IMG/VR virus record: IMGVR_UViG_3300009497_000006
Span: 1 to 56,104 of that record
Length of the DNA stretch: 56,104 nt
DNA from: a virus
Reading direction: 5' to 3' (one strand)
Position numbers and translations under genes: made by a program. This document shows, piece after piece, positions 14,615 through 46,578 of the stretch (positions are counted from its first letter, which is position 1; every line of letters starts with the position of its first letter). Below the pieces are notes generated by a model. The model had not been told where the DNA came from and did no database searches. It worked only from the letters and a program-made list of their open reading frames with translations.

Positions 14615-17600
14615 ATGAATACTAACAACTCTATTTCTAATTCGCTCAAGAAACTACTTGAAATCAATACAAATTCCTTAAAAACATTTGAGAGAATTAA
14701 TGAGGCGATTACAACTGATCAGAAAGATGTACCCCTTGAGATACTAACTACTGATGGGACTAAAACTGTTTATGTGCCATCGTTCGGTTACATGAAGAGA
14801 GAATTGGAGAGATTGGACACGAATTTAAAATCATTATCTGGATTAGGTAAAGGTAATACTAGGATTAAGTTACCAGACGGTACTTATCAAAATATTATTA
14901 CTTCTACACTTAAAACACCAGCTAATGATATTACTAGTTTCACTAGACCTGTAAACTTTGCAACTAAAGCAAACTATTTCTTTGAGGATTTCTTAAATCC
15001 GTTGTTAACTACTAGTATTAATGTTAGTGGTCAAATTCCTAATAATACAGAAAGAGTCTTGGTTAAAAGAATCTTAATTGATTCTGCCAGTGCCGTATCG
15101 GTTGAATTTTTCAATGCTAATTATAAAAACAAAGAGGGTTTAAATTACTCAAATATAATTAAAGAAATTAGTAATAACAATATTTCATACACACTAGATG
15201 AGGACACTCGTGATATGCCATATAGAAATGCGCAATTTACCGGTAAGTTTGATGTTTTAAAAATTAACAACTCTAAAAGGGAAATTGTGGTTGATGGTGT
15301 TACTACCAAAAAAGCTATAAAGTTATACACACTAGATAAAATAACATATACTGATGCCACTAAGGATCTTAAAGATACTGAGGTATTAAAAGCAGGTGAT
15401 GAACTTATGGTTCAGAGCGGCACTAAGAACACTAGATATAAAATTACAAGAGTTGATGGTTCAACTAATCAAGTTGAGTTATTAACGGTTGAGGGTTATG
15501 AGTCTATTAAAATCGGAGCGAATCAATTAGGTATCTATAAAAACGATGTTGCTAATTTAAACATCGACCTTAATGTAGGATTTAACGAGAGGATGATAGT
15601 TTTTGTTAAGGCAATAGATCCGGATTCAAAAATATTAGCTGAAAACTGGTCACCTGGTATTGGCTTATATACAAATGAATTAACGCTGATTCAGGCTGAT
15701 GGCTCAGAAATTAGACTTGATGACTATTACAAAACTGAAGTTGCTGACTTTGGTAGATACATCAGCGCTCTTAAAGAGGATGCTATCCCACCGGCAGCAC
15801 AGGGTATTACCCCAGACTCTCCAACCTTAAATCTTAACAACTTTAAGGTAGTACAAATTAACTCGCACCTAACAGCGAATGATGCGGCTGACAAGATTAA
15901 GAAACTTTCAGCTGATAAGGTTAACGTTGAAGAAAAGATTAAGAAGTTAGATGAAACTATTGTTAAAAAGAGATCTGAGATTTCTACTAAGAAATATGAA
16001 TCTAATATTCAAAAAGATAAAGACAAAAATGAATTAAGCTCTCTTATTACTGAGAGGACTAGTGAAACTAATCTTTATAACAGTATTGTTAATCAAATTC
16101 AATCTTTAGCATCAGGTACTAATGCAACTAATGTTACGCCTAAATACAGAGTTAGAGGTTTCTGGTCTGTACCAAGTGCAAAAAAAGTTGCAGATACAGT
16201 AGATCAAAATATTGTCCAATTTGTTATACAATATAGATACTTGTCTACTAGTGGAAAAGCAGGTGAAGTTACTCAACTTCCATTTACCGAAGGTACTAGA
16301 GAGAAAACAGCTGTATTCTCAAATTGGAATGAAATTAAAACTAAAGCTAGGGACAGATATAGAAACTCATTTACAAATAAATTTGAGTGGCAAAATAGTT
16401 TGGTTGAAGATGCGCAAGAGGTTAACTTTAACCAATTAGATATTGCAATTAACGAAGGTGAATTAGTAGAGATTAGAGTTAAATCCGTTTCTGAAGCTGG
16501 TTATCCTGCTAACCCGATTTATTCTGATTGGTCAGAAGCAATCACTATTGATTTCCCTATTACAGAAATCGATACAACTAATGTTGAATCTTTATTATTA
16601 TCAAATGCTGCTGAAACCGCGGCTGTTAAAATTTCAGAAGAATTAACATCTAAAGGCGTATTTACACATATCGATGATAGTTTTAGTGCTAATGAAAAAT
16701 ATTATGCGCACAACGCTACAAGTATTGCGTCTGGTTTTCTTTCAGCTGAACAAAAACCAATTTCAGTATATGATAAGATTGCCGAATTAGAAGCACAAAT
16801 AGCAGCACTTAAAGGTACTGTTGAAGTTGAAATCGGTGAATTGGTTGTTAAAATCATGGACGAGGATGGTACGGTTACTGTTATTAATAACGGTACTAAA
16901 AATCAAATCTTCGCTGGATATTACGCAGATGAGGTTGCAAGTTTAACAGTTAAGAAAGGACATATTGTTACTAAAACATTTAAACTTTTATTAGAAAACA
17001 CCAAGGCCACTAAATTAGAATTAGTTTCTAGATTGGTTGGTGATAGAAATCTACCGGCATACAGATCTTCTGCAGCAGGTTCTGCTATTGCAGATAACGG
17101 GTTTGGTGTTACCTTAAATGATAATGGAGCAAATGACACAGATAATAAAATAAGCTCAGACAACTATTATACATCAGAAGGTAAATATGATTTGGTTCCT
17201 ATTCAATATCAAAATATAGATTCTAAGTCGATTCAATCTTATGATTTGTTGGCTGAAGCACCATACCAATCGGCACAAAGACGTGGACAATTTGTATACT
17301 CTAGATTTATGGATGTTTCTAATCAAAACCCACTATACATAACAGAGTCTCTATTATCTACTACGGGATCTTCATTAAATAATTATGAATACTCACTAAA
17401 TTACGCGGAATTCCAACCATTGACGTCAAATGTAGATTTAATTACTCCAACTGGTAATGGTACATCTGTTGATTTTATATGGACAGGAACTTTTGGCAGA
17501 TACAATAATGGCGGAGTAACTAACTTAAGCGGAGAATTTTCAGCAGCAAAAGTTGATGTGTGTAGTATTTCATCGTCTGCATTAATAGGTTCTGCAAATT

Positions 17601-18337
17601 ACAACAACGGTTTGTTTATTCATAAAGACCACCCGGATTTAGAAAACCTATACGCTGATGCACAGGAAACTGCAGTAAACGAAAATAATGTTAGTGATAC
17701 TGAGCAAAGGGCTAATATACAATCAATGGTTAACAATGCAATATATACGATGCCTATAAGTGCAACGTATGCGAGTGGAACTTCGTTTGTATATAGTAGT
17801 CCATTAATTGGAAATTCTTTTTCACCATCTGCTGTTAATTCAATTAAAGCTACTAAACAATTAGCATTCCAAAAAACTTCTAATTTAATAACAGAAGGCG
17901 ATAGGACTTTTAAAATGTCGTTTGGCGCTAATGATCAATATCTTTTAGGTGGTCGTTCTTGTGGAGCTTTCTTATTCTTATCACCGATTAACTTAAATAC
18001 ATTAAGTGTTGGCGGTGACAGCAAGCAGAGTAGAAAAGAAATTAAGGGTAGAGTAGCCACATTAGATAATTCCAATGCATTGTCTGTTGATATCATATTC
18101 CAATATAGAATGACTGATTATTACGGTAACGATGCTTCAAGTGATATTGGTAGAATCGGTGGACAGGCTAAACTAAAATTCCCTAACTTAACATATACCA
18201 AAAAGATTGGTTTAGATATATTTGATAAATATGATCAACAGTTCTCATTTGATCTAGAAGTATTCGCTAAATACAGTCCTAAGGGTAAAAACTTAAATTC
18301 TATTAGAGCCGCAAAGTTGACGAGATTCGCCACATAA
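14615..18337 (+). CDS. Large virion protein with coiled coils and Fn3-like segment
   Basis: A 1240-residue protein. The N-terminus is helical (SISNSLKKLLEINTNSLKTF). A long charged coiled coil spans about residues 420-500 (repeats of K/E-rich heptads). A second helix lies near 730-760 (IYDKIAELEAQIAALKG type). Between them a fibronectin-III-like strand set is seen (YRVRGFWSVP, VQFVIQYRYLSTSG, LVEIRVKSVSEAGYPANPIYSDWSEA). Fn3 domains in phage tails often face the host surface. The exact role (baseplate pin or fibre connector) is unknown. Confidence 0.5.
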   Translation: MNTNNSISNSLKKLLEINTNSLKTFERINEAITTDQKDVPLEILTTDGTKTVYVPSFGYMKRELERLDTNLKSLSGLGKGNTRIKLPDGTYQNIITSTLKTPANDITSFTRPVNFATKANYFFEDFLNPLLTTSINVSGQIPNNTERVLVKRILIDSASAVSVEFFNANYKNKEGLNYSNIIKEISNNNISYTLDEDTRDMPYRNAQFTGKFDVLKINNSKREIVVDGVTTKKAIKLYTLDKITYTDATKDLKDTEVLKAGDELMVQSGTKNTRYKITRVDGSTNQVELLTVEGYESIKIGANQLGIYKNDVANLNIDLNVGFNERMIVFVKAIDPDSKILAENWSPGIGLYTNELTLIQADGSEIRLDDYYKTEVADFGRYISALKEDAIPPAAQGITPDSPTLNLNNFKVVQINSHLTANDAADKIKKLSADKVNVEEKIKKLDETIVKKRSEISTKKYESNIQKDKDKNELSSLITERTSETNLYNSIVNQIQSLASGTNATNVTPKYRVRGFWSVPSAKKVADTVDQNIVQFVIQYRYLSTSGKAGEVTQLPFTEGTREKTAVFSNWNEIKTKARDRYRNSFTNKFEWQNSLVEDAQEVNFNQLDIAINEGELVEIRVKSVSEAGYPANPIYSDWSEAITIDFPITEIDTTNVESLLLSNAAETAAVKISEELTSKGVFTHIDDSFSANEKYYAHNATSIASGFLSAEQKPISVYDKIAELEAQIAALKGTVEVEIGELVVKIMDEDGTVTVINNGTKNQIFAGYYADEVASLTVKKGHIVTKTFKLLLENTKATKLELVSRLVGDRNLPAYRSSAAGSAIADNGFGVTLNDNGANDTDNKISSDNYYTSEGKYDLVPIQYQNIDSKSIQSYDLLAEAPYQSAQRRGQFVYSRFMDVSNQNPLYITESLLSTTGSSLNNYEYSLNYAEFQPLTSNVDLITPTGNGTSVDFIWTGTFGRYNNGGVTNLSGEFSAAKVDVCSISSSALIGSANYNNGLFIHKDHPDLENLYADAQETAVNENNVSDTEQRANIQSMVNNAIYTMPISATYASGTSFVYSSPLIGNSFSPSAVNSIKATKQLAFQKTSNLITEGDRTFKMSFGANDQYLLGGRSCGAFLFLSPINLNTLSVGGDSKQSRKEIKGRVATLDNSNALSVDIIFQYRMTDYYGNDASSDIGRIGGQAKLKFPNLTYTKKIGLDIFDKYDQQFSFDLEVFAKYSPKGKNLNSIRAAKLTRFAT

Positions 18338-32357: not shown

Positions 32358-32726
32358 ATGAAAACATTTAATACATACTTAGTTGAAAATGCTGTCACAG
32401 AACAGGATATCAAACTTATTAACGAGGGTCTACAAGAAGAATGGACACCTGAGTTAGAGACTAAGATTGATGCCGCCCTAGAATCATTCGCATTAGAATA
32501 TAAAAATGAAGATGGTACCTTTGATATTGAAAGGCTTAATGAAGAAATTACAAATGAAGGTTTCTTTGGTTCAATTATTGGTGGTCTTACTGGTTTCGCT
32601 TTAGGTAAATCAGTTGGTAAGATGATTGCTAAAGTATTAGGTATTGAAAAAGGTATTTTCTATGATTTATTAACCTCAAGACTTGTTGGCGCTGCACTAG
32701 GTGCTAGTCTTGGTAAAAGAATCTAA
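32358..32726 (+). CDS. Small protein with capsid-targeting-like N-terminus and glycine-zipper segments
   Basis: A 122-residue protein. The start MKTFNTYLVENAVTE resembles the T4 capsid-targeting peptide (MKTYQEFIAEA), which sends internal proteins into the prohead. The middle is acidic and helical. Residues about 70-122 hold glycine-zipper-like hydrophobic helices (GSIIGGLTGFALGKSVGKMI and LVGAALGASLGKRI) that could insert in a membrane. Packaging followed by membrane insertion during ejection is possible, but inferred. The stop directly abuts the RuvC-like ATG. Confidence 0.6.
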   Translation: MKTFNTYLVENAVTEQDIKLINEGLQEEWTPELETKIDAALESFALEYKNEDGTFDIERLNEEITNEGFFGSIIGGLTGFALGKSVGKMIAKVLGIEKGIFYDLLTSRLVGAALGASLGKRI

Positions 32727-37959: not shown

Positions 37960-39687
37960 ATGCAAAAGTTAAAATCATTTGATCAATTTGCTACCGAAGC
38001 AAAGATTTCTCAAACTAGACACTTAGAAGAAGAAAAGATCGTAAAAAGAACTAATGAAGCAGAGGCTTTTAAAGCACTCTTATCTGAATTTAAAGTAGCT
38101 TCAATCAAAGAATTGACAGAAGAGCAAAGATCAGAATTTTTTAATAGATTAAGAGGTGCTGAAATTAACGAAGCAGTTACACTTATCGAAGAGGGCACAA
38201 GAGGTCAATTTGGTAAAATAGATAAGAAAGGTAATATCACTTCAATTTATACACATTACGATTCTTATCCAGAAAACATGTTACCTATTATTAAGAAATC
38301 TTTTAAAAACCCAAAAGCAGTTGATGCTGTTATTGCAAAGGGAGATTGTTCAGGTTTAGAAGATAGTATTGATAAGATGAATTTTTACGGAGATAAAAAT
38401 GCAATGACACCTTCAAAGGGTTCAATCGCTAACGTTTCTAAATATTTGAGAGATGTAGCTACCAATAGCAGCGCAGAATTCGTTTACCTTTGGGACGAAG
38501 CTAACAAGCAATGGTTAATGGCTGATATTTATGGCAATGGCTATGATGACTTATATCCAGCATTTGAATCTGTTTCTGTTTCAGTAAATGAGGCGATTCA
38601 GGTAAAATACAAGAGAGATGCTAAGAAAGTTGTTACAGTTTACAATAACTTGTTTGCAAAAAAACTAACTGACTTGGGTGCAATGTCAAATGAATCAGTA
38701 TTAGGATGTATTAAGTACTTATTTGAAATGGCAATGGAAGATGCTAACTTCTCAAGAGAAGGATTTGCAATCTCTAAAAATATTAAAGGTTCTATTAGTA
38801 CCTTTGAAGTTAAAATGCCAGGTTTAGGTAATCACTTTATTAAGATCGGTGCAACTACAGTTAAGAGAGTACTAGACAAATACTATTCTGATATTGCTAA
38901 CGCAGCAGGATGGTCAGGTATCGGTATCGTTGAAGGTACTGCACTTTACTTAGAGCAAATTAAACAAGAGGCAGCGGGTCAATCTTTATTGAACGCATTT
39001 AATGGATTCTTTAACGAAAGTATTGTTATTGAAAACGCTGATATTTTATGTGAAGCAACTGTTGAAATGGATGCAATGGATCCAGATGATAAAGACTTTT
39101 TAAAATTCTTAAAGAAACACAAGGTTACTATTATTGATAAAAAGATGGACGGTCCAGGTGGCGGAACTCCAGTTATCACAATGCAAGGTAAGAGAAAAGA
39201 TCTTGAAGCAGTATTAGCTGATGAAGAATTAGGATGGGCTGATGCAGATCTAGCTGAATACATCGAAGAATCAGTAGTTAACGAAAAACTATCTAAGTCT
39301 GAATTAAACAAAATTGAAGATTTTCTTTATGACCAAGATGCAGATACTTTAAGAGATATTTGTGATGATTTATTAATGGACGATGAAGATTATGCAGAAA
39401 ACAAGTACGATCTAGATTCAGATGATTTAGTAGGTATGGCAATGGATTACATTGACAGCGAAAGCATCAAACTAAAAGATGTTAAAGCAATTGTTGAATC
39501 TAAAGTAAACGAAGCTGAAGTTAAATCTGATGAAGAATTTAACGAATATGCAACCACGGTTTTACAAAAAGCATTTGGTGAAGAATTTGATGAGGCTAAA
39601 GCAAAAAAAGTAATTGATGGCATCTTAGCTAAATCTAAGGGTGATTATGGCGTAGCAGTCGGTATGCTGACTAGCTCATTAGGCTAA
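37960..39687 (+). CDS. Probable internal virion protein with capsid-targeting-like N-terminus
   Basis: A 575-residue protein. The N-terminus MQKLKSFDQFATEAK matches a pattern (M-K-x-x-x-x-F-[DE]-x-[FY]-x-x-E) shared by several nearby genes and resembling the T4 capsid-targeting peptide. Residues about 82-185 contain an IYTHYDSYPENM block with VIAKGDCSGLEDS, a domain I have the impression recurs in phage proteins (HWDGYP type). The C-terminal half is acidic (DDLLMDDEDYAENKYDLDSD). Several INEA/VNEK/VNEA sites resemble T4 prohead-protease sites (x-x-E then small residue). The packaged-in-head role is inferred. Confidence 0.55.
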   Translation: MQKLKSFDQFATEAKISQTRHLEEEKIVKRTNEAEAFKALLSEFKVASIKELTEEQRSEFFNRLRGAEINEAVTLIEEGTRGQFGKIDKKGNITSIYTHYDSYPENMLPIIKKSFKNPKAVDAVIAKGDCSGLEDSIDKMNFYGDKNAMTPSKGSIANVSKYLRDVATNSSAEFVYLWDEANKQWLMADIYGNGYDDLYPAFESVSVSVNEAIQVKYKRDAKKVVTVYNNLFAKKLTDLGAMSNESVLGCIKYLFEMAMEDANFSREGFAISKNIKGSISTFEVKMPGLGNHFIKIGATTVKRVLDKYYSDIANAAGWSGIGIVEGTALYLEQIKQEAAGQSLLNAFNGFFNESIVIENADILCEATVEMDAMDPDDKDFLKFLKKHKVTIIDKKMDGPGGGTPVITMQGKRKDLEAVLADEELGWADADLAEYIEESVVNEKLSKSELNKIEDFLYDQDADTLRDICDDLLMDDEDYAENKYDLDSDDLVGMAMDYIDSESIKLKDVKAIVESKVNEAEVKSDEEFNEYATTVLQKAFGEEFDEAKAKKVIDGILAKSKGDYGVAVGMLTSSLG

Positions 39688-39711
39688 TAATTAAATTACA
39701 ATATATACATT

Positions 39712-40998
39712 ATGAAGATCTACCATAATTTTGAACAGTTTGTAACTGAAAAATTACATTCAAATATAAAAGAAGCTTTAATTTTAGAAGGCGGGGCTGC
39801 CGGTCATATGGCACATCCATTTGATGATAAGTCATTAACATTTACAGATTTCAAAGCTCTTATAGAAGCTGGTTTAAGTGGTGAACTTAATTTTGAAGAG
39901 GACGCTACTGAAAAAACAGATGGACAAAATGTATTTGCAACTATTCAAGATGGTGAGGTTAAATTTGCTCGTAACAAGGGTGAACTTATAACACCAATGG
40001 ATCTTCAAACGTTTAAGCAAAAATTTGATGGACATGCATCTGCAATGGTTGAAGAAACTTTTAAGTTTGCTGCAGAAGATTTAGCCAATGTGTTGATTAA
40101 ATTACCAGCTAAAGTTCAACAAGAAGTATTTGAAAATGGACTCAATTGGATGAACATGGAATTGATCTATTCTAAAAATCCAAATGTAATCTATTATGAT
40201 AGAGATATTATTCAATTTCATGGTATAAAAAAGACAGATGGTAATGGTAATATAATTGGTGAAGATAATAAACCTGCATCAGTAATAGCAAAAGCCTTAG
40301 AGTCTGTTAAAGCAAATGTCGGTAAAACATTTACTATAATTCCACCTCAAATAATTAAATTAGGTAAGGACCTTAATTTTGAAGAAAATAAAAATAAATT
40401 TATTAAGAAGGTTGAAGCGCTCCGCGACAAATATAATTTGACAGACGCTGATGAAGTTAGCCGCTATCATGAAATGTGGTGGAGGGAAACTATAGATTCA
40501 AATTTCCCAGATTTAACACAAGACTTTAAAGAAGGTTTATTATTAAGATGGGCATATGGAGATAAAAAGACCCTTAATTTAAGATCTTTAGACAAAGAAC
40601 TTGGAAAAGACAAGGCAGCTATTATTAAGAAATTTGACAAAGAAGATGTTGCTAAGAAATACAAAGAGAATATTAGACCGTTTGAAGATCTATTCTTAGA
40701 ACTAGGTTCTATTATTCTAAAAAACGCTTCTAATTTTGTTGCTGCGTCACCAGATGCTGAAATGCAAAGATTACATAATCAAATTAGAACCGAAGCTGAT
40801 AAAATTAAAAAAGGTGGATCAATCGAACAGATACAAAAAGTTGAAGCTGAATTAGCTAGATTAGAAAGAATAGGTGGAATTGATTCAATTATGCCAACTG
40901 AAGGGATTGTCTTTGTTTATAAAGGCAAGACATTTAAGTTAACAGGAACATTCGCTGCAATTAACCAGCTTATGGGTATTATTAAGTACGGAAGATAA
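39712..40998 (+). CDS. Nucleic-acid ligase-like nucleotidyltransferase with targeting-like N-terminus
   Basis: A 428-residue protein. It starts MKIYHNFEQFVTEK, the shared targeting-like motif. The ligase core shows motif I E67-K68-T-D-G-Q-N (the lysine takes AMP), a motif III-like NWMNMELIY, and motifs IV/V near the C-terminus, T396E397GIVFVYKG then FK409LTG. This is the DNA/RNA ligase superfamily. The pieces between motifs are long and helical, and I see no separate OB domain. The next gene codes for a second ligase-like protein. The substrate (RNA or DNA) cannot be told. Confidence 0.65.
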   Translation: MKIYHNFEQFVTEKLHSNIKEALILEGGAAGHMAHPFDDKSLTFTDFKALIEAGLSGELNFEEDATEKTDGQNVFATIQDGEVKFARNKGELITPMDLQTFKQKFDGHASAMVEETFKFAAEDLANVLIKLPAKVQQEVFENGLNWMNMELIYSKNPNVIYYDRDIIQFHGIKKTDGNGNIIGEDNKPASVIAKALESVKANVGKTFTIIPPQIIKLGKDLNFEENKNKFIKKVEALRDKYNLTDADEVSRYHEMWWRETIDSNFPDLTQDFKEGLLLRWAYGDKKTLNLRSLDKELGKDKAAIIKKFDKEDVAKKYKENIRPFEDLFLELGSIILKNASNFVAASPDAEMQRLHNQIRTEADKIKKGGSIEQIQKVEAELARLERIGGIDSIMPTEGIVFVYKGKTFKLTGTFAAINQLMGIIKYGR

Positions 40999-41008
40999 AC
41001 AACACAAC

Positions 41009-42856
41009 ATGGCTTTACAAAACTTAAGAACATATTTTGAATCAACTAATACCAATGACTTTTTGGCTATGTTGGACCTGACATGCGTTGTATCTGAAAA
41101 GATTCAAGCATCTTCATTTCATGTTAAAAGAACTGATACAGGCTTTAACTATTATAAAAGCGGTTCTAAATACCAAATGGATAGAGTAGATAGAACCATG
41201 GTTAAATACTATGAAAATGGTATTAAATATTTTTCAACAATATTAAAAGAAGTTACCGAAGAGATGCCATTAGATTGGAAATTCGGCTTTGACTACATGT
41301 TGGATAATAAAACGGTAAGCATTGAATATGATGTACTACCTAAAAACCACTTAATCCTAACACATATACAAGTATTAAACCCAAATGATCCTACTCAAAT
41401 TAAAAAAGTAATTAGAGATCCACAGGTTCTAAACAAATGGGCGGATAAATTAGGAGTTCAGAGACCGCCAATTGTATTTGAAGGTAAACTACAATCTAAT
41501 CAAAAGGACGACATTATATCGCTTCTAAACACATCTGATCAAGACTTCATAACTAAGTTTGAATCACAATCATTTACTAGAACAATATACAATATATTTA
41601 ATAATGGTCTTAATACTCCTGCGTTAAACTTTACACTAGATAAAGATATTGATGGGTTAATAATCAATTTCTACGAAGGTAAAAACATTAAGAGTTTTAA
41701 GCTAGAGAGATTTGACAGAAAACCACAAGAGGAAAGAAGTCCATCTGACATGTATCAGATTTCAATTTTAGATCTAGTAGAATTTATTACTAACTATGAT
41801 TTATTAGCTATTGAAATATCAGAAGAAGAGTCAGACCTTAGATATATTGAATTAATCTCAAATATATTTAATGCATACATTGAAAAGAATGCCTCTAAAT
41901 ATATTGGAGCTAATTTTGATTCAGCTGATTTCTCAGACAACAAAGGATTTGATCTTAATCGTACATTTATTAAAGATGAAAAAACAATATCATTAATTCA
42001 AAATAAAGTTTTGGCAGAGTTATTTAAAATTGCGTTAGGTAGTTTTAGAAAGAAGAGAACTAGAGAAACAGACATTATTAACACTGACTTAATGAACCAA
42101 ATCAATGAAATAGTTGAAACTATAGAAGGCATTGTAATGGCAAAAACAAATGAAAATGACGTTATGACATTTAAAACATATTTAGTTAACCAAAAACTTC
42201 AACATGAAGTTAGTCCAGTTTTAGAGGGGCTTACAGTTAAATACCCAGAACAAGGTAAAACACCAGTCAACATGTTCGTTGGTAGATTCCAACCATTTAC
42301 GCTGGGCCATGCTAAAGTAGTTGAGACTATTAATAAACAAAACGGTTATCCGGTAGTTGTTTTTCTAGTTAAATCAAAAACTAAAAAGAAAGAGGATGCT
42401 TTTTCTAGACCATACGACGAAGAAACTCAACTTCAAATGTTAAACCAACTAAAAGGTAAATATCCAATTGAGAAGGTTTATATTATTGACAGGGGAGCAA
42501 TTGACCTAATGTTTAATACAATGAGAGCCGATGGTTATGAACCCGTATTATGGGGCACTGGAAGTGATAGACTTAAAACGTATTCATATCAAGTTGATAA
42601 ACCAGAATATAGAGAAGACTTGGGTGTAAGGACTGATTTTGGTCTTTTTGAAATTCCAAGAACTGGTAAAAATATTTCAGCTACGCAAGTTAGAAATGCA
42701 ATGCTAGATGGTGATGAGAAGCTATTTAAGAAACTAACACCTAAAGAGATACACAACATGTATGGTGAATTAAAGTCTAAATTAGAAGACAGTATGGGTG
42801 TTTTGGCAGAGTCAAAATCTGTTATGACCTTCGATCAATTTATTAAGAATATATAA
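41009..42856 (+). CDS. Ligase-like domain fused to NMN-adenylyltransferase-like domain
   Basis: A 615-residue protein. Residues 1-240 look like a second ligase-type domain: motif I S29E30K31IQASSFHVKR, a SIEYDVLPKNHLIL strand, and motifs IV/V D215GLIINFYEG with FKL. Residues about 418-590 are a nucleotidyltransferase of the NMNAT/NadR type: GRFQPFT431LGH434, then I556SATQVR562. The fusion would link RNA or DNA end joining with NAD or nucleotide chemistry. Two targeting-like segments appear, MTFKTYLVNQ at M386 and MTFDQFIKNI at M606 (the very C-terminus). Cytidylyltransferase activity is the main alternative to NMNAT. Confidence 0.65.
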   Translation: MALQNLRTYFESTNTNDFLAMLDLTCVVSEKIQASSFHVKRTDTGFNYYKSGSKYQMDRVDRTMVKYYENGIKYFSTILKEVTEEMPLDWKFGFDYMLDNKTVSIEYDVLPKNHLILTHIQVLNPNDPTQIKKVIRDPQVLNKWADKLGVQRPPIVFEGKLQSNQKDDIISLLNTSDQDFITKFESQSFTRTIYNIFNNGLNTPALNFTLDKDIDGLIINFYEGKNIKSFKLERFDRKPQEERSPSDMYQISILDLVEFITNYDLLAIEISEEESDLRYIELISNIFNAYIEKNASKYIGANFDSADFSDNKGFDLNRTFIKDEKTISLIQNKVLAELFKIALGSFRKKRTRETDIINTDLMNQINEIVETIEGIVMAKTNENDVMTFKTYLVNQKLQHEVSPVLEGLTVKYPEQGKTPVNMFVGRFQPFTLGHAKVVETINKQNGYPVVVFLVKSKTKKKEDAFSRPYDEETQLQMLNQLKGKYPIEKVYIIDRGAIDLMFNTMRADGYEPVLWGTGSDRLKTYSYQVDKPEYREDLGVRTDFGLFEIPRTGKNISATQVRNAMLDGDEKLFKKLTPKEIHNMYGELKSKLEDSMGVLAESKSVMTFDQFIKNI

Positions 42857-42859
42857 ATA
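42852..42859 (+). promoter_or_regulatory. TATAAATA, identical to the T4 late promoter box
   Basis: It overlaps the stop of the ligase/NMNAT gene and lies 16 bases before the next ATG. One exact 8-mer in AT-rich DNA is weak evidence on its own. Confidence 0.3.
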
Positions 42860-42875
42860 AACATAATACACCAAA

Positions 42876-43286
42876 ATGAAGAATATAAAATCATTTGAAA
42901 GTTTTACAGAAGCCAATAACATATCAGTAGATGAATCTATTCAATTTGGGTCTTATCACTATAATTCTAGAACTGAATTCGGTGAGCATGCCGATAATCT
43001 ACCAGAAAAAGGTGAGACTAAATACTTAGTATTTGCCCATAATTCTGCAGATTTTTATGGTCAAAGAATTAGATTAGAAGCAGGATATACAATTGGTTCT
43101 GCTGGCTCAAAACAATACATCGGTGTATTTGATGACGAGGCCTCTGCAACTGACGCATACAACACTGCTATGAAAAAACCAGATGGTGTATTAGTATCGT
43201 TCTCAATGGGAACTCTTTATGCAAAGTCTAAGTTCTCATTCCAGTATGAAGAAACAAACGGTCATTTAGCAAAGATTAAGAAATAA
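42876..43286 (+). CDS. Small protein with capsid-targeting-like N-terminus
   Basis: A 136-residue protein. The start is MKNIKSFESFTEANN, again the shared motif. The rest is a compact mixed domain (KYLVFAHNSADFYGQRIRLE, then AGYTIGSAGSKQYIGVFDDE), a family I do not recognise. A helical linker of about 20 residues separates the motif from the domain, as if the motif could be cut off. Packaging in the head is inferred from the motif alone. Confidence 0.5.
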   Translation: MKNIKSFESFTEANNISVDESIQFGSYHYNSRTEFGEHADNLPEKGETKYLVFAHNSADFYGQRIRLEAGYTIGSAGSKQYIGVFDDEASATDAYNTAMKKPDGVLVSFSMGTLYAKSKFSFQYEETNGHLAKIKK

Positions 43287-43297
43287 TATATCAAAAA

Positions 43298-44863
43298 ATG
43301 GATAATAATCAACCAATAGAAGAAAGACACATCACTGTCAAAAGAAAATATACTGAAAACTACCCAGCTGTTAAAGTTGGCAAGGCTGCTAGAATTAGAA
43401 ATAAAGTTTTAGAAGCTATTAAAGATGGTAAACTTACTAAAGAAGAGTTTGATACTATTTTAAAAGAGATGACAGTTGATAGTACGAGATGGATTAAAAG
43501 AAACGCTACTTATTTTAATGTTAGTGAAGAGGGTATCACACTTTCTAAAACGGGTAAGAAAATTCTAAATGAATTAACAACTACTATAGATATTAATGAA
43601 AAAGCAACTCCCTTTAAAATTGCAAACGCAAGAGCTGAAGAGATTTTTGGAGAGTTTGGCGTTGCAACATTAGATTACAGTCAAGTGGCAAGAGTAATAG
43701 ATATCAAGTTAGCTGATAAACTAGCTAAAAAATATGGTGAAGATAGTTTTATGGCCTTGTCAGAATTAGACATGGAAGAACTTCTTAATAAGAATCCAAA
43801 ATTAGTAAAAGAAAATAAAACAAATAATAACATGAAAACAAACTTTGTATTTGAAAGTTTTGGTGACTTTGTAAATTCACTAAACACCACGAATAAATCA
43901 AAAGAATTAGTTACCGAAGCATTTAAGTCTAGTATGCTTGCTAGTTTATTTAGAACTAAAGGCGCTAAATTCGACGCTACTTTAGCGAAAGCATTTTATG
44001 GTACAGCTAAAATTAAAATGGACCTTGTTGAAGACGAAGATATTTTAGTAGTTAATCCAGAGACTGCTTATAAAAATAAGCAAGTGGATTCAATTATTTT
44101 CTATGTGTCTGATGTACCAAAAGAAAATCCATATGCACCTAGTGATGCATGGTATGATCATAAAACAATCCCAGGCGAAGGCTACTTATTAGCGGTTGCT
44201 TCTGGTGAAAATGCATTTTACACTAAATCTTGGGGTAAATATGATAAACAATATAAATTAACTAAAGGTAGCGAGTCTGATTCAGTTGGTATTTCTAAAA
44301 AGTACAAAGGATGGGACGGAACAGGTCTTTATAACGTAAAAAGAATTGCCGAAGTTGCAGATAGAGCTATTGTTTTAAACATGGCACTTTTAAGACAGAA
44401 ATATTCTGCTGAAGCTGAAAGAGCCTCAAGGGCTGATGCTAAAAAAGGTGCAATCGCATTTAAGTCAGATAAAGACTTCAAGAAAGAGAACATGGACAGA
44501 TACCACCAAATTTTAGCTAATAAAGCGGCTTCTTTACCATTAGACAAAATGGTTGCAGACGCTATTGAATCTCTAACTACTCAAATTAAAGACGGTTTAG
44601 CTAAAGGTGAAAAAGGACGTTATGAAGATATTATCATTGGTCGTAAAGCAAATGGTAGCGAAGCTAGATTAAGAGATGCTTCTAATCATATGTCAAGCAT
44701 CTTAGACGATTATAATAGATATGTTAGTTATATTGGGCAGGCTGAAGAGTCAGAAAAACAATATGGCGACAGAGAGTCTTACTACGAAAGAGAAGCTAAG
44801 AACTACGCTAAGTCAATTAAAGATAGAATCAATCAGATTGAATCATTTGATTATGTCTGGTAA
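43298..44863 (+). CDS. Two-part protein, targeting-like motif inside at residue 179
   Basis: A 521-residue protein. Residues 1-170 are basic and helical (VGKAARIRNKVLEAIKDGKL, then EEFDTILKEM). Residue M179 begins MKTNFVFESFGDFV, the same motif found at the start of neighbouring proteins. Before it, the codons read like an intergenic leader (AAATAAAACAAATAATAAC). Residues 179-521 form a separate domain of unknown family. Two readings fit: a fusion of formerly separate genes, or an internal start at 43832 giving a second product. Confidence 0.55.
   Translation: MDNNQPIEERHITVKRKYTENYPAVKVGKAARIRNKVLEAIKDGKLTKEEFDTILKEMTVDSTRWIKRNATYFNVSEEGITLSKTGKKILNELTTTIDINEKATPFKIANARAEEIFGEFGVATLDYSQVARVIDIKLADKLAKKYGEDSFMALSELDMEELLNKNPKLVKENKTNNNMKTNFVFESFGDFVNSLNTTNKSKELVTEAFKSSMLASLFRTKGAKFDATLAKAFYGTAKIKMDLVEDEDILVVNPETAYKNKQVDSIIFYVSDVPKENPYAPSDAWYDHKTIPGEGYLLAVASGENAFYTKSWGKYDKQYKLTKGSESDSVGISKKYKGWDGTGLYNVKRIAEVADRAIVLNMALLRQKYSAEAERASRADAKKGAIAFKSDKDFKKENMDRYHQILANKAASLPLDKMVADAIESLTTQIKDGLAKGEKGRYEDIIIGRKANGSEARLRDASNHMSSILDDYNRYVSYIGQAEESEKQYGDRESYYEREAKNYAKSIKDRINQIESFDYVW
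43832..44863 (+). CDS. Possible internal-start product of the preceding gene (343 residues)
   Basis: The ATG at 43832 is in frame with the longer gene and follows an AT-rich run that looks like the leader of other genes here. The product would start with the shared targeting-like motif. Its separate expression is an inference. Confidence 0.35.
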   Translation: MKTNFVFESFGDFVNSLNTTNKSKELVTEAFKSSMLASLFRTKGAKFDATLAKAFYGTAKIKMDLVEDEDILVVNPETAYKNKQVDSIIFYVSDVPKENPYAPSDAWYDHKTIPGEGYLLAVASGENAFYTKSWGKYDKQYKLTKGSESDSVGISKKYKGWDGTGLYNVKRIAEVADRAIVLNMALLRQKYSAEAERASRADAKKGAIAFKSDKDFKKENMDRYHQILANKAASLPLDKMVADAIESLTTQIKDGLAKGEKGRYEDIIIGRKANGSEARLRDASNHMSSILDDYNRYVSYIGQAEESEKQYGDRESYYEREAKNYAKSIKDRINQIESFDYVW

Positions 44864-44915
44864 ATTCAAAAGAGTATTCTTTGAGTATTGGATTAAACCA
44901 TGGTACTCTGCTTAA
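44853..44915 (+). CDS. Micro-gene of 20 residues, overlapping upstream stop
   Basis: It runs from ATG 44853 to the TAA at 44913 and codes MSGKFKRVFFEYWIKPWYSA. It overlaps the last 11 bases of the upstream gene, in another frame, and lies in the gap before the next gene. The sequence is strongly amphipathic and aromatic. It is short, so it may be chance. Confidence 0.25.
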   Translation: MSGKFKRVFFEYWIKPWYSA

Positions 44916-44931
44916 TTATAGAATTAAAACT

Positions 44932-45342
44932 ATGAAACACATACAATTATTTGAACAATTTTTAAACGAACAAAGTATTCCTAAGAGATTTGGATCAGAA
45001 GAACAGTTTGACTGGAAAGACGTAGAACAAAAATTAGTATCATCTTTTATTGGTACATTTAAACACTATAAATATAACGATATGAAGGTCCCTGACATGA
45101 AGCTCTTATTCATAGAAACATTCGATGTTCTAACAAAGAAATTTGGATATGAAGATCACCACGCATTAGATTACTTGAATAAAAACGGGCGCAGCATATC
45201 ATACTACGTCATTAATAATCATGATGGTGTAGATGGAAAGAGGCGTTATGCGTACTTCAATGATGCATTGGGAAGAATGGAAGAAATATTATTAGGATTA
45301 GAAACATTGTCTAACTGGAAAAAACTGGCAAAAAACTATTAA
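44932..45342 (+). CDS. Small protein with capsid-targeting-like N-terminus
   Basis: A 136-residue protein. I chose ATG 44932 because it begins MKHIQLFEQFLNEQSI, the shared motif; an upstream in-frame TTG (44881) would add 17 residues unlike it. The rest is a helical-mixed domain (FKHYKYNDMKVPDMKLLFIE, then HHALDYLNKNGRSISYYVIN). No family is recognised. Confidence 0.5.
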   Translation: MKHIQLFEQFLNEQSIPKRFGSEEQFDWKDVEQKLVSSFIGTFKHYKYNDMKVPDMKLLFIETFDVLTKKFGYEDHHALDYLNKNGRSISYYVINNHDGVDGKRRYAYFNDALGRMEEILLGLETLSNWKKLAKNY

Positions 45343-45399
45343 TAAAAAAACAATACAATTATGAAACATACTATTAAAACAATACGCTAGGAAGTAATT

Positions 45400-46578
45400 A
45401 TGCCAAGTACAAGTAAATCACAACAAAGATTAATGGGACAAGCGTACGCTTATAAAAAGGGTGAGTTAAAATCTGATGAAGTTAGTGCTGAAATAAAAGA
45501 ATTAGCAGATAATATGACTCTTAAGCAGTTGAAAGATTTTGCAAGTACAAAGCATACTGGTTTACCAGAGACGGTAGATGAAGCATTTATTGGACCGTTT
45601 GTATTTAATGATAGTATGTCAGATGAAGAATTACTAGGAATGTATAACGGAGCATTAGACGGTTATGCTAATTATGCTAAAGGAATGCACTATACTAAAT
45701 CCGATTATAAGAAAGCTTATCAAGAAATTGAAAAGATCTTAAAGAAGAGAGGAATTACAGTAGACGAAAACATAACCCCTGCTAATTTAACGGGTATGGG
45801 TCCAGTAGTTTTACCAGGTAATGGTACAGTTGGATCAGGTGATGTTCCAGCAGGTTCTGGTGATGCCGAAGAAGAATATAAAAAGAAAAGAAAAAAAATG
45901 AAATATATCAAAACGTTCGAGGCATACTCACAAGATGATATTAATATGTCATATGGTTTTTATGGTCAAATAGAAACTAGCTTTAATGAAAAGAAAGCTA
46001 AGACTCTTTTTGATCAAGGCGTAAAAGATCTTCAAAAAAAGTATAAACTAACCGAAACAGGGGCATTAGGTGTACTTAATTCAAAAATGGGTAGAAAGGC
46101 GGCTGATGAGATTTATAATAACAGTGCTAAAACTGCAGTTGAGGGACTAGAAAGCTATTATGGTAAGTCACTCCAAAAATATATCGCTGAAGTACAAAGA
46201 TCTCTGGTACACGAATCAAATGAAATTATTGAAGAGGCAACAGATATTAATGATCCAGTTCTAGTGGCAATGAGAGCAATGAAATCAACAATGGCAGCTA
46301 AAAAAGCTCAAGCAGCGCTGGACAAAAAGAAAAGAGTTTATGGTAAACAAAGGGATGTATTAGAAGATCAACTTTGGGATATTGCAAATGAACTTAAAGA
46401 TTTAACTTCAGAAAGATCTCAATTGTATAAAGATATGGAATCAGAGGCTGGCGAAAGGGGTACTGAATGGTCTGATGAAGATGCTAACAGATATGGCGGT
46501 GAACTAAATGCAATCGAAGATCGCATTGATGCTTTAAAAACTAAAAGAAAACAGATAGAAGATAGATTATCTTACTAG
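45400..46578 (+). CDS. DUF3008-like N-terminus joined to an internal-protein-like domain
   Basis: A 392-residue protein. Residues 1-57 match the DUF3008 pattern (MPSTSKSQQRLMGQAYAYKK and MTLKQLKDFASTKHTGLP). A central linker (GTVGSGDVPAGSGDAEE) runs to a lysine-rich stretch. M167 then begins MKYIKTFEAYSQDD, the targeting-like motif. The C-terminal 100 residues are a charged coiled coil. The ATG at 45400 has AGGAAG 8 bases upstream, one of the few Shine-Dalgarno-like sequences here. This looks like a fusion or a nested start at 45898. Confidence 0.55.
   Translation: MPSTSKSQQRLMGQAYAYKKGELKSDEVSAEIKELADNMTLKQLKDFASTKHTGLPETVDEAFIGPFVFNDSMSDEELLGMYNGALDGYANYAKGMHYTKSDYKKAYQEIEKILKKRGITVDENITPANLTGMGPVVLPGNGTVGSGDVPAGSGDAEEEYKKKRKKMKYIKTFEAYSQDDINMSYGFYGQIETSFNEKKAKTLFDQGVKDLQKKYKLTETGALGVLNSKMGRKAADEIYNNSAKTAVEGLESYYGKSLQKYIAEVQRSLVHESNEIIEEATDINDPVLVAMRAMKSTMAAKKAQAALDKKKRVYGKQRDVLEDQLWDIANELKDLTSERSQLYKDMESEAGERGTEWSDEDANRYGGELNAIEDRIDALKTKRKQIEDRLSY
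45898..46578 (+). CDS. Possible internal-start product of the preceding gene (226 residues)
   Basis: ATG 45898 is in frame with the longer gene and is preceded by an A-run (GAAAAGAAAAAAA) like a leader. The product would start MKYIKTFEAY, the shared motif, and end in the same coiled coil. Separate expression is an inference. Confidence 0.35.
   Translation: MKYIKTFEAYSQDDINMSYGFYGQIETSFNEKKAKTLFDQGVKDLQKKYKLTETGALGVLNSKMGRKAADEIYNNSAKTAVEGLESYYGKSLQKYIAEVQRSLVHESNEIIEEATDINDPVLVAMRAMKSTMAAKKAQAALDKKKRVYGKQRDVLEDQLWDIANELKDLTSERSQLYKDMESEAGERGTEWSDEDANRYGGELNAIEDRIDALKTKRKQIEDRLSY

Follow-up and report, generated by a model that had tools for sequence, protein, structure and literature searches.

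The closest described relative of the system we report here is the capsid targeting sequence of phage T4. In the internal protein IPIII the first ten residues suffice, residues 4 and 7 serving targeting and residues 8 and 10 processing; the protease gp21 cleaves after L/I-x-E; and it has already been suggested that the tag possibly lets T4-like phages take in various proteins (all from those parts of PMC9026906 available to us). Our subject is a viral record (IMGVR_UViG_3300009497_000006, positions 1–56,104, single strand; "the window" refers to this whole stretch of 56,104 nucleotides) with the gene set of a T4-like myovirus. Several of its open reading frames (ORFs) begin with variants of M-K-x-[IVL]-x-x-[FY]-E-x-[FY]-[IVL]-x-E, a start that is very probably a capsid targeting tag of the T4 type; we call such proteins tagged. 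An earlier note on this DNA had pointed to seven copies of the motif, five at gene starts (32358, 37960, 39712, 42876 and 44932) and two at internal methionines (43832 and 45898), and all seven are present. The explanation we build on them, in which a T4-type tag, gp21-type cutting and a mosaic of polyprotein-like cargo belong together, is one we hold as a whole with good confidence.

The motif recurs independently of the family of the protein that carries it. As relatives we used the best 80 of 236 viral contigs matched by the 39712 protein as query (L001–L080). With the window and two further relatives, G001 and G002, these gave 1,990 gene calls, 1,315 non-redundant proteins and 418 families, the grouping being done after the first 25 residues had been stripped. 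A de novo search over the starts of these families, one member each and the initial methionine dropped, returned K-H-[IV]-[KQ]-L-[FY]-E-[QE]-F-[IVL]-N-E with a log-likelihood of 747 nats, against 198 for residues 31–60, 290 for C termini and 282 for shuffled starts. Forty-four families are listed with it, the last few doubtful by eye. A 14-residue profile was first trained on 38 families from loci outside the window and L001–L013. These still included orthologs of window genes, so the profile was retrained on 35 families, the three homologous to window cargo having been removed. Across the 371 Met-anchored sites in the 43 called genes of the window, this final profile ranks 44932 first (42.3 bits), followed by 39712 (16.3), 42876 (14.7), 37960 (13.2) and the internal site 45898 (12.3), with E values of 0.003–0.017; the sixth site, internal 33195, has an E value of 0.24. 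The de novo search lies far above its controls, and the claim that the motif at gene starts is non-random holds. Five of the seven sites are thus recovered, 32358 and 43832 not reaching significance with the 35-family profile (43832, MKTNFVFESF, had E = 11 under the earlier 38-family one). The register of 32358 differs: its start, MKTFNTYLVE followed by N, has ten residues as in T4, and 36 of 39 distinct family members retain the core. Site 43832 is backed by homology, because in L024, L027, L033–L036 and L076 its downstream domain follows a genuine N-terminal tag.

Among the relatives the tag recurs at many gene starts. A regular expression, drawn up after the relatives had been seen and fixed ahead of the cyanophage test described below, matches 12 gene starts in G001 (2.95 expected from internal methionines), 14 in G002 (3.79), 12 in G004 (1.96), 18 in G005 (2.44), nine in G006 (3.07) and seven in G008 (2.05), which makes 72 observed against 16.3 expected. 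The controls T4 and P-SSM2 gave five matches (1.29 expected) and seven (1.71 expected), those of T4 including two MKTYQEFIAEA ORFs and MKTFKEFIKED. The spacing of the tag is that of T4. When the sequences are anchored on the glutamate, T4 Y4, F7, I8 and E10 fall on [FY]7, [FY]10, [IVL]11 and E13. In the 39712 family an aromatic stands at residue 7 and at residue 10 in 35 of 35 rows, L/I/V at residue 11 in 34 and Glu at residue 13 in all 35, where 17 of the 35 rows begin at residue 6 or 7, taken from the start of the match. Residues 14–22 of this family are variable, and E26-G27 is invariant.

The protease that such a tag calls for is present in the relatives. The earlier note had proposed a search for a gp21-type enzyme; 13 of 15 relatives, all but G001 and G011, encode an S77 protease (PF03420), and none was found in the 56 kb of the window. 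In G002 it heads an ORF of 820 residues (G002:C1:147160-149622) with a long acidic scaffold-like tail, between portal-like and capsid genes. In G002, G004, G006 and G008 the regular expression has a match immediately ahead of the protease, and in G005 and G008 a tagged gene lies between the protease-scaffold and capsid genes, the G008 variant FEQFLIAE escaping the expression. In T4 the two ORFs richest in [LIV][NT]E[AGS] sites match in length gp22 and gp21, which we take them to be. A side observation is that the protease, where matched, lies within an open frame of 570–831 residues in 10 of 13 relatives.

Cyanophage virion proteomes allow tagged genes to be set against proteins found in particles. 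The virion proteome of S-CREM2, as given in the part of PMC10665884 available to us, holds 52 proteins. Six of the 219 ORFs of this phage match the regular expression, and four of the six belong to the proteome (P 0.03, with 52 of 221 genes as the background). They are a cytidylyltransferase, hypothetical ORF13, a SAM hydrolase and a kinase, the last matched when read from a start that lies five residues ahead of its annotated GTG. The two that are missing from the proteome start MNWLKNYLIE and MNQVEYLQQYVTE; two further virion proteins, the Cas9-like ORF12 and ORF136, carry tag variants by eye. S-SZBM1 has five matching ORFs, of which the virion cytidylyltransferase (MRFRQFIIEA) is the one we could place in the available virion list. 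The accessible portions of the virion papers on S-CREM2, S-SZBM1 and S-SCSM1 do not mention a targeting tag. Register, P1 Glu, protease in relatives, neighboring head genes and the S-CREM2 proteome agree, and they support both the T4 capsid targeting interpretation of the earlier note and its idea of a whole packaged set. Separately, the S-CREM2 Cas9-like protein (OR473000 7704-10313) and the P-SSM2 cytidylyltransferase (158143-159417) share a stretch immediately behind the tag (query residues 12–159, E 5e-10), which suggests, from the alignment, a common post-tag module in cyanophages.

In the window, tail genes (to ~32 kb) are followed by a single-stranded DNA-binding protein, a primase, a UvsW-like helicase (with matches in 3,201 phage records) and then the cargo block, these names being partly assigned by eye. 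The features that concern us are the following, a slash marking a candidate cut.

32358–32726, plus strand: small tagged protein, 122 residues; tag MKTFNTYLVE/N, then LINE/G; C-terminal glycine-zipper-like stretch (Gly-zipper match E 4e-4, under the Pfam cut-off).
37960–39687, plus strand: tagged polyprotein-like ORF, 575 residues; tag MQKLKSFDQF (37960–37998).
38194–38592, plus strand: module GTRGQFGKI of 37960 (phrog_1987), LIEE/ before it and SVNE/ at its end.
38593–39054, plus strand: module of 37960 beginning AIQVKYKRDAKK, behind SVNE/.
39055–39285, plus strand: module of 37960 beginning ATVEMDAMDP, behind ILCE/.
39286–39513, plus strand: module of 37960 beginning KLSKSELN, behind VVNE/.
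39514–39684, plus strand: module of 37960 beginning AEVKSDEEF, behind KVNE/.
39712–40998, plus strand: tagged nucleotidyltransferase-like protein, 428 residues; tag MKIYHNFEQFVTE/K (39712–39750).
Before nucleotide 39790, plus strand: second candidate site of 39712, ILE/GG.
41009–42856, plus strand: predicted RNA-ligase-2-like and NMNAT/cytidylyltransferase fusion, 615 residues; no N-terminal tag.
42164–42193, plus strand: tag-like MTFKTYLVNQ at the ligase/NMNAT junction of 41009; aromatic pair conserved, no P1 Glu.
42824–42853, plus strand: C-terminal MTFDQFIKNI of 41009; F608 and F611 invariant in 25 aligned sequences.
42876–43286, plus strand: small tagged protein, 136 residues; MKNIKSFESF..., possible delayed site VDE/S at residue 20.
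43298–44863, plus strand: two-module ORF, 521 residues; N-terminal module starts behind PIEE/.
43832–43918, plus strand: internal tag-like MKTNFVFESF...ELVTE/ in ORF 43298, directly preceding module AFKSS.
44932–45342, plus strand: small tagged protein; near-consensus tag MKHIQLFEQFLNE/Q, 42.3 bits (formally opening at TTG 44881, with ATG at 44932).
45400–46578, plus strand: DUF3008 (about 45409–45573), linker, internal tag and payload.
45769–45864, plus strand: linker NITPANLTGMGPVVLPGNGTVGSGDVPAGSGD in the 45400 ORF, resembling the capsid N-terminal arm of relatives.
45898–45936, plus strand: internal tag MKYIKTFEAY in the 45400 ORF, behind the linker and a lysine-rich run; 12.3 bits.

Two readings of this block were tried and dropped. 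The match of 37960 to defense-system proteins in PADLOC is weak only (E 0.002), and GATATATA-like sequence, considered as a late promoter, occurs near some starts at chance level (two matches, 1.39 expected) and is not specific to tagged genes. The phrog_1987 module (38194–38592) matches hypothetical proteins of Streptococcus phages in 20 records, and the 12 listed all span residues 79–187.

Several of these ORFs look like strings of modules, and the modules tend to begin where a gp21-type protease would cut. Our unbiased junction test used internal homology starts among the 1,315 proteins, each with at least two supporting homologs. It gave 315 junctions in 119 proteins, 179 of them with [LIV]xE[AGSKRN] nearby, against 73.5 (standard deviation (SD) 7.3) when positions are drawn at random from those proteins. 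The mean [LIV]xE fraction across 88 upstream/downstream combinations is 0.74 against 0.31 at random. Because one downstream cluster chains several modules (170 junctions), we added an average over the 25 downstream families, which is 0.64 against 0.30 (SD 0.07), or 0.64 against 0.31 without that cluster. By eye a frequent form is ES-[VL]-[LIV]-[NT]-E/A. The C-terminal domain of ORF 43298, found in 70 ORFs, illustrates the pattern: of 48 distinct homologs (five unanchored ORFs left out of the count), 46 have [LIV]xE immediately ahead of it. The exceptions are L053, with ITE a few residues earlier, and an L039 fragment. Upstream of the domain, some ORFs have a true N-terminal tag and others unrelated domains. 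The eight block ORFs of the window (2,925 residues) contain [LIV]xE[AGS] 22 times, its 34 other ORFs (15,130 residues) 30 times. Of the eight [LIV][NT]E[AGS] sites in those 34 ORFs, four lie in the one at 14615–18337 (1240 residues).

The explanation we favor runs as follows. The shared start would be a T4-type targeting tag whose two aromatics bind the prohead core, and a gp21-type S77 protease would cut at [IVL]-x-E, releasing the cargo in the head ahead of DNA packaging. The cargo set of the group would be large and fast-changing, from small proteins to enzymes, the nucleotidyltransferase-like 39712 among them. Domains are swapped between ORFs and mostly start at [LIV]xE, so one tag may bring in several protease-separable domains; that the cargo ORFs are polyproteins separated by the prohead protease seems to us reasonably likely on their sequences. 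The cargo would then be delivered with the DNA and act at the onset of infection. For the window phage we infer packaging, cleavage and injection, and we consider injection of the tagged cargo likely. The broadest form of the idea, that these phages use the head as a compartment for processing cargo, with one tag, chained effector domains, protease cuts at [LIV]xE and cassette-like reshuffling of domains, we would back by a narrow measure.

The internal tag-like stretches invite another account, in which 43832 and 45898 are true alternative starts giving short tagged products, as in T4 gene 21, with its second start at Met45 (PMC9026906, in the part available). In 25 ORFs, window 45400 included, the linker ENITPA..GMGPVxLP..GSGDVPAGxGD precedes the internal tag-like stretch; a methionine precedes that stretch in most of the 25 by eye, A-rich sequence lies before both window sites, and the 43832 domain occurs as a separate tagged gene in the seven loci named above. 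In six homologs (L013, L043, L061, L064, L065 and L073), however, the 43832 motif has no Met immediately ahead of it, so internal methionines need not be starts, and homologs that lack the aromatic motif (for example L047, L062 and L075) still have the [LIV]xE junction. The motifs at both methionines exist and are better read as junctions in fused proteins; we regard alternative starts as unlikely, though worth keeping in mind.

The linker raises a question of its own. When its profile was run against 10,817 ORFs, major capsid proteins ranked next below the true linkers: G006 at 1.6e-4, G002 (gene L095:9727-11184) at 5.8e-4, G005 at 0.0014, G004 and G008 at 0.01, PTm1 at 0.032 and G007 at 0.068. 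The capsid protein of LR756500 reached only 1.3, and two further ORFs, one of PTm1 (0.0013) and one of LR756500 (0.0099), ranked among the capsid proteins. From this likeness, which spans ~20 residues, a capsid-arm-like linker may dock one class of cargo to the shell.

It is also conceivable that the glutamates at the junctions belong to acidic linkers of an ordinary kind and that the fusions stay whole. Linkers in general are often charged, and E alone is enriched 1.22-fold at junctions. At the same junctions, however, [LIV]xE rises 2.4-fold (z 10), but [LIV]xD (0.72), [LIV]xK (0.56) and [DEKN]xE (1.08) do not, [LIV]xS coming to 1.46-fold. The signal also survives averaging per family, and the site precedes the 43298-type module despite varied upstream sequence. 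Uncut fusions are accordingly doubtful in our judgment, and polyprotein processing remains our preferred account.

A third possibility is that the peptide docks proteins not to the capsid but to another phage structure or complex, for example a replication, transcription or membrane assembly. Conservation of a peptide by itself shows a shared binding partner only. This tag, though, ends in a gp21-type site, has the T4 register, sits beside or among the protease and capsid genes, and is matched by starts of the same type in S-CREM2 virions, all of which makes docking elsewhere improbable. The weakest account puts the repeated start down to the DNA itself (recent duplication, a target for recombination or an enhancer of translation), and we dismiss it as extremely improbable. 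The tagged genes are clustered and vary between relatives, and codon identity at same-residue positions in 12 G005 tags is slightly over expectation from codon usage (0.618 against 0.563, 440 comparisons), but identity so near expectation means that the DNA has diverged and the peptide been kept. On this ground we rejected duplication, and upstream sequences differ by eye. The tag is selected as a peptide, and it persists in a huge-phage homolog at 33% identity (MKFLKSYEEFLNE).

Some of our results weigh against capsid targeting followed by cleavage. The protease was not found in the window, by a search that was silent on control genomes too. In the 37960 family the full core stands beside the tag in eight of 36 distinct rows and the aromatic pair in 32; in the 42876 family the counts are one and eight of 11. 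Both row sets include rows matching elsewhere in the query or with a mis-cut start. The Glu beside the tag (residue 13 in 37960) is absent from most rows of these two families, and cutting there would need a later site. Inside tagged proteins [LIV]xE[AGS] is only modestly enriched (79 against 47.9 shuffled; other proteins, 916 against 679). Enzyme 41009 has no N-terminal tag, and the 39712 homolog of Mel-JY01 has no visible one. The regular expression is near chance in Tenacibaculum phage PTm1 (six matches, 3.49 expected), and ORF 122311 of S-SZBM1, a good-looking tag, has no protein of its length in the available 30-protein virion list.

The earlier note had placed two ligase-like enzymes in the tagged set. 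Of these, 39712 is tagged, but 41009, the better supported ligase, is the one that lacks the N-terminal tag. The model of 41009, of middling confidence (predicted local distance difference test (pLDDT) 72, predicted template modeling score 0.41), matches 2hvr (E 1.4e-8) and 4yp5 (E 4e-4) in Foldseek, and E30 and K31 of its motif EKIQASS are invariant in 25 sequences. The protein is thus predicted to be an Rnl2-like RNA ligase fold fused to NMNAT, and we infer from the motif that K31 is the nucleotidyltransferase lysine. In 39712 the KTDG (residues 68–71), EG and lysine positions are invariant. A ligase identity for 39712 drew no significant sequence or fold match, the best fold match being 2hvr at E 0.95 (pLDDT 66). 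A role for 41009 and 39712 in early RNA repair or NAD supply is a guess. In Mel-JY01 (L081 11243–13162) an NMNAT-like domain and the 39712 homolog lie in one ORF with no visible tag, an arrangement unlike that of the window.

Among ten hand-picked tagged proteins of the relatives are an RNase HII and ATP-grasp ligases, four of the five passing a Pfam cut-off. The ATP-grasp enzymes are at G002 41838 and 42869, G004 10600, G005 100694 and G001 82781, and three of them match a phage family whose name refers to the modification of ribosomal protein S6; they are candidate injected modifiers of host proteins. As for the host, the capsid protein of G002 is of the T4 type and, among named phages, comes closest to those of Tenacibaculum and Prevotella (Lak) phages, so the window phage probably infects a Bacteroidota bacterium.

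The great diversity of their bodies makes the proteins that phages deliver hard to spot from sequence. With a tag legible in the sequence itself, each tagged gene, genome-wide, would become a candidate first-minute effector, many of them without a known family. If the polyprotein account is true, it is an unexpected route for loading several effectors with one signal, and new cargo could join without a tag of its own. The cyanophage data suggest this tag as the reason why NMNAT-like enzymes, a SAM hydrolase, a kinase and perhaps a Cas9-like nuclease occur in virion proteomes. The tags may also be usable as packaging signals in engineered phage heads.

How, then, does the window compare with what is known? 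Among the titles we came across, none concerned such tags in Bacteroidota phages or cyanophages, or polyprotein cargo, which does not prove that there is none. The Pfam and PHROG matches of the eight block ORFs (E 0.001) include no family of the T4 internal proteins IPI to IPIII. The likeness to T4 lies in the targeting sequence: a short N-terminal peptide on unrelated proteins, with an equally spaced aromatic pair, hydrophobic residue and Glu. The consensus here is three residues longer (MKHIKLFEQFINE); there are seven to 18 regular-expression matches per relative, part of them chance; and the tag sits on enzymes and mosaic multi-domain ORFs, with tag-like stretches also within ORFs. A T4 ORF, MKTFKEFTSTTTPVSTITE/A, is a delayed-site variant with which the possible later sites here may be compared. 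With T4 gp21 and the S77 proteases the relatives have the S77 domain and the [LIV]-x-E rule in common, G002 differing by its fused acidic region. The enzymes recall those of cyanophages: S-CREM2, S-SZBM1 and S-SCSM1 carry NMNAT-like or cytidylyltransferase proteins in their virions, as far as the available reports go, and the enzymes of S-CREM2 (MKNFSSFLTEA) and S-SZBM1 (MRFRQFIIEA) start with T4-type tags. Unlike in those phages, the NMNAT domain of the window sits behind an RNA-ligase-like domain, and T4 RNA ligase 2 (2hvr) and an archaeal NMN adenylyltransferase (4yp5), separate likenesses, are joined in 41009 in one fused polypeptide.

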